Positions 56,831 through 63,554 of a stretch of DNA of 64,000 nt are shown piece by piece. Every line of letters begins with the position of its first letter. Positions within the stretch are counted from its first letter, which is position 1. The translations under genes and the position numbers were made by a program. The notes under the pieces are model-generated. The model saw only the letters and a program-made list of their open reading frames with translations. It did not search any database and was not told where the DNA came from. The stretch is from Streptomyces cinnamoneus (GTDB lineage Bacteria > Actinomycetota > Actinomycetes > Streptomycetales > Streptomycetaceae). The stretch lies in assembly GCF_002939475.1 (NCBI RefSeq), contig NZ_PKFQ01000001.1, positions 1,364,001 through 1,428,000 of the forward strand, given 5' to 3'.

Positions 56831-57616
56831 CTACAGCGGGGTCACGTAGGCGCCCGCGATGCCTCCGTCGACGAGGAACTCGGCGGCGTTGACGAAGGAC
56901 GAGTCGTCGCTGGCGAGGAAGGCGACCGCGGCGGCGATCTCCTCCGGTTCGGCGAAGCGCCCCACGGGGACGTGCACCAGCCGGCGCGCGGCCCGCTCGG
57001 GGTCCTTGGCGAACAGCTCCTTGAGCAGGGGGGTGTTCACGGGCCCCGGGCAGAGGGCGTTGACGCGGATGCCCTCGCGGGCGAACTGCACGCCCAGCTC
57101 GCGGGACATGGCCAGCACGCCGCCCTTGGAGGCGGTGTAGCTGATCTGTGAGGTGGCGGCGCCCATCACGGCGACGAAGGACGCGGTGTTGATGATGGAG
57201 CCCTTGCCCTGCCGCTGCATGTAGGGCAGTGCCGCCTTGCAGCACAGGTAGACGGAGGTGAGGTTGACCTCCTGGACGCGCTTCCAGGCGTCGAGCCCGG
57301 TGGTGAGGATGGAGTCGTCGTCGGGCGGCGAGATGCCGGCGTTGTTGAAGGCGACGTCGACGGAGCCGTAGGTGTCGTAGGCGGTCTTGAAGAGCGCCTC
57401 GACCTGCTCGGCGTCGGTGACGTCGACCTGGACGAAGAGCCCGCCGACCTCGTCGGCCGCGGCCTTGCCGGCGCTCTCGTCGATGTCGGCGCACACGACG
57501 TGGGCGCCCTCGGAGGCCAGGCGCCGTGCGGTGGCCAGGCCGATGCCGCTGCCGGCTCCGGTGATGACGGCCGTGCGTCCGACGAGACGGCGGCAGACGG
57601 GGGTCTGGTCGGTCAC
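56831..57616 (-). CDS. Short-chain dehydrogenase in the ethanolamine-type gene set
   Basis: The 261-residue SDR has the NAD motif TGAGSGIG (about residues 19-26), NNAG, and the catalytic Ser-Tyr-Lys (TASFV, then YTASKGG). Its GTG overlaps the ALDH stop (GTGA), so it is part of the glnA4 operon. It could oxidise the alcohol of gamma-glutamylethanolamide to the aldehyde for the next enzyme. This assignment is inferred from position. Confidence 0.9.
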   Translation of the reverse strand: MTDQTPVCRRLVGRTAVITGAGSGIGLATARRLASEGAHVVCADIDESAGKAAADEVGGLFVQVDVTDAEQVEALFKTAYDTYGSVDVAFNNAGISPPDDDSILTTGLDAWKRVQEVNLTSVYLCCKAALPYMQRQGKGSIINTASFVAVMGAATSQISYTASKGGVLAMSRELGVQFAREGIRVNALCPGPVNTPLLKELFAKDPERAARRLVHVPVGRFAEPEEIAAAVAFLASDDSSFVNAAEFLVDGGIAGAYVTPL

Positions 57617-58980
57617 TTGGTCTCCTCCAGGGGGTCGATGGCGATGAACACGTTCTTGGTCTCGGCGAAGGCGGCCAGCGCGCCCGGGCCCAGTTCCCGG
57701 CCGAGGCCGGACTGCTTGAAGCCGCCGAAGGGCGTCCAGTAGCGGACGCTGCTGTGGGAGTTGACGGAGAGGTTGCCGGCGGCGACGGCCCGGGAGAGGC
57801 GCAGGGCGCGGGAGACGTCCCGGGTCCAGATCGAGCCGGACAGCCCGTAGTCGGTGGCGTTGGCGAGGCGGACGGCCTCGGCCTCGTCCTCGAAGGGGAT
57901 GACCACGGCGACCGGCCCGAAGACCTCCTCGGTGGCGACGCGGTCGTCCGGGGCGGCTTCGAGGACGGTGGCGGGGTACCAGAAGCCCTTGCCGGCCGGC
58001 GCCTCGCCTCGGATGGCGGCCGGTGCGTCCTCGGGCACGTACCCGCGCACGCGCTCCCGCTGCGCGGCGGAGATCAGCGGCCCCATCTGCGTGGCGGGGT
58101 CGGCCGGGTCGCCCGTGACGAAGGACTTCACGGCCGGCTCCAGCAGCTCCATGAACCGGTCGTAGACCCGGCGCTGGACGAGGATGCGGCTGCGGGCGCA
58201 GCAGTCCTGTCCGGTGTTGTCGAGGAAGGCGCCGGGAGCGGCGGCGGCCGCCCGCTCGACGTCGGCGTCCGCGAAGACGATGTTGGGGCTCTTGCCGCCG
58301 AGTTCGAGGGTCACGCGCTTCACGCCCGCCGCGCACTTGGCCATGATCTGCTTGCCGACAGCGGTGGATCCGGTGAAGACGACCTTGGCGACGCCCGGGT
58401 GTTCGACGAGGGCGGCGCCGGCGACCGGGCCCCGGCCCGGCAGGACCTGGAAGAGCCCCTCGGGCAGCTGGGCCTCCAGGGCCAGCTCCGCGAGCCGCAG
58501 GGCGGTCAGCGGGGTGGTCTCGGCCGGTTTGAGCAGGACGGCGTTGCCGGCGGCGAGGGCCGGGGCCAGGCCCCAGGCCGCGATCGGCATGGGGAAGTTC
58601 CACGGGGCGATGACGGCGACGACGCCGAGCGGCTCGTGGAAGGTGACGTCCAGCCCGCCGGCCACGGGGATCTGGGCGCCGGTCAGGCGCTCGGCTCCCC
58701 CGGCGGCGTAGTCGAGCAGGTCGCGGACGTTGCCGGCCTCCCAGCGGGCGTTGCCGATGGGGTGGCCCGCCTCGCGGACCTCCAGAAGGGCGAGTTCCTC
58801 CAGGTGGGCGTCGACGGCCGCGGCGAAGCGCCGCAGCGCGCGGGCGCGGTCGCCGGGGGCCAGGGCCGCCCAGGCCGGCTGGGCCGCGGCCGCCCGCCGG
58901 ACGGCCGCGTCCACGTCCCGCGCGGTGGAGTCGGGGACGGTGGCGACGACTTCTTCGGTCGCCGGGTTGAGGATGTCCAA
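57613..58980 (-). CDS. Aldehyde dehydrogenase in the ethanolamine-type gene set
   Basis: The 455-residue ALDH has the NAD-binding FTGSTAVGKQIM, the general base in LELGGKSPN and the catalytic cysteine in NTGQDCCARSRI (about residue 261). It begins with TTG at 58980, eight bases after GAGGACC and ten bases past the glnA4 stop. It would oxidise the gamma-glutamyl aldehyde to gamma-glutamylglycine. Family specificity cannot be read from sequence. Confidence 0.92.
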   Translation of the reverse strand: MDILNPATEEVVATVPDSTARDVDAAVRRAAAAQPAWAALAPGDRARALRRFAAAVDAHLEELALLEVREAGHPIGNARWEAGNVRDLLDYAAGGAERLTGAQIPVAGGLDVTFHEPLGVVAVIAPWNFPMPIAAWGLAPALAAGNAVLLKPAETTPLTALRLAELALEAQLPEGLFQVLPGRGPVAGAALVEHPGVAKVVFTGSTAVGKQIMAKCAAGVKRVTLELGGKSPNIVFADADVERAAAAAPGAFLDNTGQDCCARSRILVQRRVYDRFMELLEPAVKSFVTGDPADPATQMGPLISAAQRERVRGYVPEDAPAAIRGEAPAGKGFWYPATVLEAAPDDRVATEEVFGPVAVVIPFEDEAEAVRLANATDYGLSGSIWTRDVSRALRLSRAVAAGNLSVNSHSSVRYWTPFGGFKQSGLGRELGPGALAAFAETKNVFIAIDPLEETK

Positions 58981-62808: not shown

Positions 62809-63554
62809 GCGGGAACGAGGAAAGGACAAGGGAATTGGACGCGCCGGAACACAGGCCCCTCATCGGTGTCACCACCTATCTGACCCGGGCGCGCTGGGGA
62901 GTGGCCTGGGACCTGCCCGCCACCCTCCTGCCCGCCGCCTACCCGGCCTACGTCCAGCGGGCCGGCGGCCTCGCCGTGATGCTGCCGCCCGACGACCCGG
63001 CGTCCGCCGCGGCGGTCCTCCACCGCCTCGACGGCCTCGTCCTCGCCGGCGGCGAGGACCTGGACCCGGCCCTGTACGGCGCCCGCCCGCACCCCCGCGC
63101 CGGGACGCCCGTACCCGAGCGCGACCGCTGGGAACTGGCCCTGCTCGACGTCGCGCTGCGCCGCGGCCTGCCGGTGCTCGGCATCTGCCGGGGCATGCAG
63201 CTGATGAACGTCCACGCGGGAGGCACGCTCTGCCAGCACCTCCCCGACGAGGTGGGCCACGACCGCCACAACCCCGTCCCCGGCACCTTCACCGACCACA
63301 CGGTCACCCCGGTCCCGGGCACGCGGACCGCCGGCCTGCTGTCCGGCCCGCTGGCGGTGGCCACGCAGCACCACCAGTCCGTGGACCGCCTCGGCACCGG
63401 TCTCGTCGCGACCGCCCACGCCGAGGACGGCACCGTGGAGGCGCTGGAGTACCCGGGCAAGCCCTTCGCGCTGGCGGTGCAGTGGCATCCGGAGGCACGG
63501 GACGACCTGCGACTGGTGAGGGGACTCGTGCGGGCGGCCACGCGTGAGGCGTGA
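62805..63554 (+). CDS. Gamma-glutamyl hydrolase, PuuD-like class I amidotransferase
   Basis: The 249-residue enzyme has the class I amidotransferase triad: Cys in LGICRGMQLMN (about 120), His and Glu in QWHPEA (about 228-233). PuuD hydrolyses gamma-glutamyl-GABA; here gamma-glutamylglycine or another gamma-glutamyl acid from the ethanolamine route is more likely. It overlaps the permease by four bases and would return glutamate to the ligase, completing the cycle. Confidence 0.9.
   Translation: MSGNEERTRELDAPEHRPLIGVTTYLTRARWGVAWDLPATLLPAAYPAYVQRAGGLAVMLPPDDPASAAAVLHRLDGLVLAGGEDLDPALYGARPHPRAGTPVPERDRWELALLDVALRRGLPVLGICRGMQLMNVHAGGTLCQHLPDEVGHDRHNPVPGTFTDHTVTPVPGTRTAGLLSGPLAVATQHHQSVDRLGTGLVATAHAEDGTVEALEYPGKPFALAVQWHPEARDDLRLVRGLVRAATREA

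Follow-up and report, generated by a model that had tools for sequence, protein, structure and literature searches.

How a streptomycete might live on ethanolamine, and how the genes for doing so might be switched, are the questions raised by a locus at positions 56831-63554 of a 64,000-nucleotide stretch of the Streptomyces cinnamoneus genome (the window, part of a 6.66-Mb genome). We put the probability at roughly 0.8 that this locus is an ethanolamine-use cluster, in which ethanolamine would be imported by an Eat-type permease, ligated to glutamate, oxidized by a short-chain dehydrogenase/reductase (SDR) and an aldehyde dehydrogenase (ALDH), and the product released by a C26-family hydrolase, under repression by a FadR-type regulator acting through two palindromes. 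Clusters of this kind are already known; what we add is a predicted operator, the occurrence of which depends on the regulator gene, and the placement of the putative alcohol and amide steps in protein families (SDR and C26, respectively) other than those with which Table 2 of a 2022 review equates them (PMC9397018). The six genes are intact and form two divergent sets, the SDR, ALDH and GlnA4-type ligase on the minus strand and the GntR/FadR-type regulator, permease and hydrolase on the plus strand:

56831-57616, minus strand: SDR-family dehydrogenase; its GTG start overlaps the ALDH stop
57613-58980, minus strand: ALDH; begins 10 bases past the ligase gene
58991-60346, minus strand: GlnA4-type ligase
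60390-60413, plus strand: predicted operator 1, between the ligase and regulator genes; 11 of 14 core positions
60431-61150, plus strand: GntR/FCD (FadR-type) regulator, EpuRI-like; matches PF00392 and PF07729 and is placed as in the published cluster
61264-61287, plus strand: predicted operator 2, between the regulator and permease genes; 14 of 14 core positions
61348-62808, plus strand: Eat-type ethanolamine permease; matches amino-acid permease Pfam families and TIGR00908
62805-63554, plus strand: C26 / class-I glutamine amidotransferase-type hydrolase; its ATG overlaps the Eat stop; matches PF07722

Gene calls and family scans bear out the gene set listed in an earlier, sequence-only reading of this DNA (Eat, GlnA4-type ligase, SDR, ALDH, hydrolase and FadR regulator). 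Its description of two divergent operons is right as to arrangement and needs refinement in one respect, namely, that the gap of about 200 bases between the regulator and Eat genes carries an operator-like site of its own.

The permease exceeds, over the whole protein, the cut-off of the curated TIGR00908 model 'ethanolamine permease' (482.4 versus 381.75 bits). The ligase matches PF00120, is only 27-31% identical to the four other PF00120 proteins of its own genome, and falls below the cut-offs of the models for GlnA and gamma-glutamylputrescine synthetase (the latter, 202 versus 650 bits); its closest named relative is that of Streptomyces lilacinus (92% identity, records of the window's own genome being possibly excluded), and its second-best match in the PDB is 5dm3 (402.7 bits, the third reaching 184), which we take to be the C. 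salexigens structure. In the ligase, as in the SDR, ALDH and hydrolase, we assume that the residues of catalytic type have their customary roles, and these are conserved throughout: nine are invariant in 206 of 206 ligase loci; Ser146, Tyr160, Lys164, Asn118 and Asp44 of the SDR (PF13561/PF00106) in all loci read (182 or 183); Cys260 and Glu226 of the ALDH (PF00171, 530 bits) in 174 of 174 and 175 of 175, respectively; and Cys128, His228 and Glu230 of the hydrolase (PF07722, 218.8 bits) in 168 of 168. An aspartate past the second strand, such as Asp44, indicates NAD by general rule, and an NAD preference would be consistent with oxidation. Among the best 25 NCBIfam models listed for the ALDH, none is above its cut-off, and the hydrolase remains below the PuuD cut-off (87 versus 266 bits).

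The published work on Streptomyces provides the frame in which these families can be read. The cluster has been described in S. coelicolor, S. venezuelae, S. scabies, S. albus and S. pristinaespiralis (Krysenko et al. 2019, PMC6529630). The S. coelicolor GlnA4 (SCO1613) produces gamma-glutamylethanolamide, with a Km of 0.47 mM for ethanolamine, and was reported to be ethanolamine-specific among the amines tested there; glnA4 is required for growth of S. coelicolor on ethanolamine, is repressed by EpuRI and becomes derepressed without epuRI (PMC6529630). Electrophoretic mobility shift assays of EpuRI were reported for eight promoter regions, and binding to those of glnA4 and epuRI, which are among the eight, was shown (PMC8998196). 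The further steps, SCO1611 followed by SCO1612 and SCO1615 to glycine and glutamate, have already been proposed as a prediction (PMC6529630; repeated in the review PMC9397018). Since the cluster and the order of steps were published by Krysenko et al. in 2019, the pathway put forward in the sequence-only reading is a rediscovery: its assignment to ethanolamine gamma-glutamylation stands, given the family scans and the published cluster of the same genes, the role that it gave for the S. coelicolor GlnA4 agrees with PMC6529630, and its order of ligase, SDR, ALDH and hydrolase is supported but was already in print. As far as it can be checked, then, the pathway reading is supported as correct, for a known kind of cluster and not a new one. 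None of our 80 named loci carries the label S. coelicolor, so that the comparison with the SCO proteins relies on the published descriptions.

Accordingly worded for the window, the ligase is likely a gamma-glutamylethanolamide synthetase, the SDR a predicted gamma-glutamylethanolamide dehydrogenase and the counterpart of the SCO1611 dehydrogenase of PMC6529630, the ALDH a predicted gamma-glutamyl-aminoacetaldehyde dehydrogenase, and the C26 protein a predicted gamma-glutamylglycine hydrolase; the substrates of the last three we infer from sequence. Ethanolamine would enter through Eat, and the ligase would use ATP to couple it to the gamma-carboxyl of glutamate, as shown for SCO1613. The SDR would then oxidize the hydroxyl to an aldehyde still bound to glutamate and, therefore, no free acetaldehyde would arise and a microcompartment would be unnecessary. 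The ALDH would yield gamma-glutamylglycine, from which the hydrolase would free glycine and glutamate. The EpuRI-like regulator would bind precisely these two palindromes and hold both operons silent, to be released by ethanolamine or a product derived from it.

Could the cluster instead be directed at a different amino alcohol or a set of small amines, such as 3-aminopropanol or alaninol, with ethanolamine as one of several substrates? The downstream enzymes come without an assigned substrate, and the SDR and ALDH families are broad; but the permease lies above the curated ethanolamine-permease cut-off and the S. coelicolor ligase, with the Km given above, was specific for ethanolamine among the amines offered to it (PMC6529630), so that we consider this wider substrate range unlikely.

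The gene neighbourhood of the ligase gives further support to the ethanolamine-use reading. The order and strand of ligase, ALDH and SDR genes are kept in 79 of the 80 named relatives, the exception (L050) being a sequence that stops about 270 bases past the ligase. Among the 67 named loci with 5 kb on both sides (of 80, all close relatives), the four enzymes are present in 67, the regulator in 61 and the permease in 50. We also drew a sample of 246 genomes across the phylum, 65 of which have a ligase at E<=1e-100, and counted partners as linked when they occurred within 9 kb above a bit threshold set by us, in loci with 5 kb on both sides. At ligase identities above 75%, SDR, ALDH and C26 are each linked in 7 of 7 loci; at 60-75%, in 18, 17 and 15 of 19, respectively; and at 40-60%, in 19, 12 and 11 of 22. 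The SDR is the most constant neighbour of the ligase in the sampled Actinomycetota. Extra or diverged GlnA4-like ligases without partner genes also occur (L152, L150 and L247-L250; 44-69% identity), some of them in genomes that carry a full cluster as well.

This constancy (18/19 and 19/22 loci in the two more distant identity classes) and the overlap of the SDR and ALDH genes in the window speak against the SDR being a bystander 3-oxoacyl-ACP reductase, with the alcohol step left to an alcohol dehydrogenase encoded elsewhere in the genome. Such an arrangement would accord with the score of the SDR above the cut-off of NCBIfam NF004713, the family name of which is 3-oxoacyl-ACP reductase (513.9 versus 404), and with the matches to PF00465, the iron alcohol dehydrogenases (Fe-ADH), in 63 of the 65 ligase-bearing genomes. 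Yet, among the matches listed, none is closer than about 80 kb to the ligase, and the two in the window's own genome are weak (43 and 32.9 bits versus a cut-off of 31.3) and both more than 100 kb away. We regard the bystander role as improbable and retain the SDR as the candidate dehydrogenase of the pathway.

Turning to the switch, both intergenic regions contain a common palindrome with the core CAAAGGT-N10-ACCTTTG. The 23-letter pattern WAAGGTAN9ACCWTTG has exactly two exact matches in the window's own genome, namely, operators 1 and 2; allowing one mismatch adds just the reverse strand of operator 2, and with the pattern CAAAGGTATGN7ACCTTTG and up to three mismatches, operator 2 is the only match. 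A position weight matrix (PWM) built from 104 distinct sites of the named loci and the window gives operator 1 a score of 28.5, although PWM scores of the window and the named loci are not a test because the matrix was trained on them. By counts of core positions, the regions between ligase and regulator genes in the window and 73 named relatives reach at least 10 of 14 in 73 of 74 cases and at least 11 in 67 of 74, and the regions between regulator and permease genes reach at least 11 in 58 of 59 (the exception being L075), whereas shuffled regions reach at least 10 in about 2% (1.9%) and at least 11 in 0.2-0.3%.

Within Streptomyces, the pattern with at most one mismatch is found in all 26 genomes with the regulator gene and in neither of the two without it, which are weak negative controls because a ligase match at E<=1e-100 is absent from one and reaches only 58% identity in the other. 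After removal of five opposite-strand duplicates (53 rows reduced to 48 places), all 31 exact sites in the 26 genomes are no more than 400 bases away from the regulator gene; of the 17 one-mismatch places, 3 are located elsewhere. Among six named loci without the regulator gene and with enough upstream sequence, five have no site. Six named Streptomycetaceae loci (L015, L060, L067, L073, L076 and L080) have the ligase, ALDH, SDR and C26 genes and neither regulator nor Eat; these look like losses of the switch. A word search of the main texts of PMC6529630 and PMC8998196 turned up no description of an operator or palindrome, nor did searches of the open literature for EpuRI and for SCO1614 list anything resembling one, subscription papers and supplements being outside that search.

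Outside Streptomyces, we scored 113 of 116 further loci with the same matrix over as much as 3.5 kb of sequence preceding the ligase, three (L130, L135 and L166) having been dropped where contig ends left less than 1 kb of upstream sequence. The 116 loci are non-Streptomyces apart from a few second ligase copies and a diverged ligase of Streptomyces genomes, which belong to the group without the regulator; loci with regulator matches only below 40% identity or 100 bits (L181, L126, L131 and L143, among others) were counted in that group too. Of the 52 loci in which the regulator gene is linked, most of them from genomes chosen for having that gene, 39 score at least 11, compared to 3 of the 61 without, and those three (L196, L212 and L230) belong to genomes that carry the regulator gene about 10 kb off or on another contig. 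The threshold of 11 is one of five (8 to 12), and the two groups come apart at every one of them; the loci being related, Fisher values on this split are not probabilities. Because many of the regulator-less loci belong to other classes, the comparison within a single genus, g3, counts most: all nine loci that have the regulator gene also have the site, and both loci without a linked copy (L116 and L180) lack it. The fuller consensus outside Streptomyces reads CAAWGGTCTG-N4-CAGACCWTTG.

The site keeps to the operon head across several gene orders. In the window, C26-Eat-regulator is divergent from ligase-ALDH-SDR; in L156-L158 and L160, the same arrangement lacks Eat; in L178, L229, L232 and L233, the site precedes the ligase by about 130-150 bases in the order ligase-C26-ALDH-SDR-regulator; in L202 and L203, the regulator is divergent from ligase-ALDH-SDR-C26; and in L231, L239 and L244, the order is permease-regulator-ligase-ALDH-SDR-C26 and the site, being ahead of the permease gene, is found about 2.4 kb upstream. 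A single-strand order Eat-ligase-C26-ALDH-SDR is also frequent in the phylum-drawn loci. In L231, L239 and L244, the gene heading the operon right behind the palindrome encodes a permease that is not Eat (PF13520 in L244, assigned by open reading frame in L231 and L239), and this protein may be an alternative ethanolamine transporter.

Being a predicted site, and including in operator 1 a -10-like hexamer recognizable by eye, the palindrome might be taken for a conserved part of the promoter or for a target of some other protein. However, its presence goes with that of the regulator gene and not with that of the enzymes, as the g3 comparison illustrates, it stays at the operon head when gene order changes, and in the mobility shift assays EpuRI bound fragments of the glnA4 and epuRI promoters (PMC8998196); we would be surprised if either of these alternatives proved right, and the palindrome is best described as the predicted operator of the EpuRI-like regulator.

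Several observations weigh against the reading developed here. One is the NF004713 score of the SDR. In addition, at 40-60% ligase identity, only about half of the loci have ALDH and C26 linked, at least one of the three partners is missing in 4 of 26 evaluable phylum-drawn loci above 60% identity, and our literature searches found no published enzymatic proof for the steps after the ligase. As to the switch, apart from the weakness of the two Streptomyces controls, a control with the pattern reversed matches once in the window's own genome and 5 times in 28 genomes at up to one mismatch; one regulator-less named locus (L060) has a weak site (11/14, PWM 10.3); 13 of the 52 regulator-bearing loci outside Streptomyces, including L219-L222 and L215-L218, score below 11; and the promoters that EpuRI shifted in S. 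coelicolor include some outside the cluster (PMC8998196), which misfits a regulon restricted to the locus.

With less assurance than for the cluster itself, but inclining towards it, we propose that Actinomycetota put together the ethanolamine gamma-glutamylation route with their own enzymes at two of the four steps (SDR in place of the Proteobacterial Fe-ADH and C26 in place of formylglutamate-amidohydrolase, FGase) and with a dedicated FadR-type repressor, the 24-bp palindrome of which would be nearly confined to the locus. Repressor and palindrome would have accompanied the route across five or more gene orders, and the palindrome by itself would then mark ethanolamine-use operons, including those with unrecognized transporters. 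This would make the uncharacterized half of a known pathway directly testable. If the proposal is true, neighbours of this ligase that are annotated as '3-oxoacyl-ACP reductase' or 'glutamine amidotransferase' would be gamma-glutamylethanolamide dehydrogenase and gamma-glutamylglycine hydrolase, respectively. The operator would provide a defined DNA target for EpuRI, would account for the joint switching of two divergent operons, and could serve as a sequence tag in finding ethanolamine operons and alternative transporters. Our searches yielded no literature tying mycobacterial homologues to ethanolamine.

Elsewhere in the window, a HAD-type gene (55462-56796) and a gene near 54.3-55.4 kb trail the cluster in many named loci; with no link to the route, they were excluded. 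The frame at 826-4551 (minus strand; 1242 aa) contains BluB (671-876) and CobT (905-1238) domains, its approximately 670 leading residues having no NCBIfam match at E<=1e-20; it is an apparent fusion of cobalamin lower-ligand synthesis and activation. The window further contains the arginine-biosynthesis genes ArgJ and ArgB (22569-24730, minus strand), an NsdA-family regulator (38906-40243) and PheS (44242-45366).

Among the known systems, the Eut route, based on EutBC and a microcompartment, has the substrate ethanolamine in common with the cluster, whereas its EutB and shell genes are unmatched in this genome: EutB has 0 matches with a positive E. coli control (EutC was not searched for), and microcompartment shell proteins have 0 matches with positive controls in E. 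coli and Synechococcus. The Eut route is thereby ruled out, in agreement with the sequence-only reading, which had the gene set without microcompartment or EutBC and had also noted cob genes in the same window; these are indeed there, about 50 kb from the cluster (the BluB and CobT domains at 826-4551 and CbiE at 4772-5992). That reading credited the SDR with making the route independent of B12; such independence would follow from the whole of the predicted route, which has no EutBC step, and not specifically from the SDR.

The Puu putrescine pathway of E. coli follows the same logic of ligase, aldehyde dehydrogenase and C26 hydrolase, whereas here an alcohol dehydrogenase replaces the oxidase. 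Ligase and hydrolase both score far under the putrescine models (202 versus 650 and 87 versus 266 bits) and no amine oxidase or transaminase is found among the six genes, on which grounds we reject a polyamine route; a substrate of the amino alcohol kind would explain why the cluster has a putative alcohol dehydrogenase where an oxidase or transaminase would otherwise be expected.

With the Streptomyces GlnA4/EpuRI cluster (SCO1610-SCO1615), the window agrees in gene content and arrangement. The legend to Fig. 2 of PMC6529630 gives an identical gene list, transporter included (short-chain dehydrogenase, aldehyde dehydrogenase, glnA4, regulator, transporter and glutamine amidotransferase), the regulator is divergent from the ligase in both, and the proposed order of the pathway is shared. 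The differences concern the permease, which is absent from the S. coelicolor cluster and present in the window, Streptomyces permeases being described in PMC6529630 as without similarity to Eat whereas that of the window passes TIGR00908, and the hydrolase, the SCO counterpart of which is called a formylglutamate-amidohydrolase member in the text of that paper, whereas the protein of the window belongs to PF07722.

Finally, the route of Chromohalobacter salexigens and Phaeobacter has the same proposed chemistry and shares the ligase and ALDH families (PMC9397018 Table 2; PMC10132767). Its alcohol dehydrogenase is a PF00465 Fe-ADH and its amidohydrolase a PF05013 FGase, where the window has SDR and C26 (PMC9397018). 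Neither PF00465 nor PF05013 occurs beside the ligase of the window: PF05013 has 0 matches in the window's own genome and is present in 10 of the 65 ligase-bearing Actinomycetota genomes, in each case either over 1 Mb away from the ligase or on a different contig, and this, together with the distance of all PF00465 matches listed, speaks against both as partners next to the ligase. Table 2 of PMC9397018 aligns SCO1611 with the PF00465 iron dehydrogenase and SCO1615 with PF05013, as in C. salexigens, a pairing that would need correction if our proposal is true. The Chromohalobacter/Phaeobacter route also has a TRAP transporter (EtoVWX) and an RpiR regulator (PMC10132767), as against Eat and the GntR/FCD regulator of the window.

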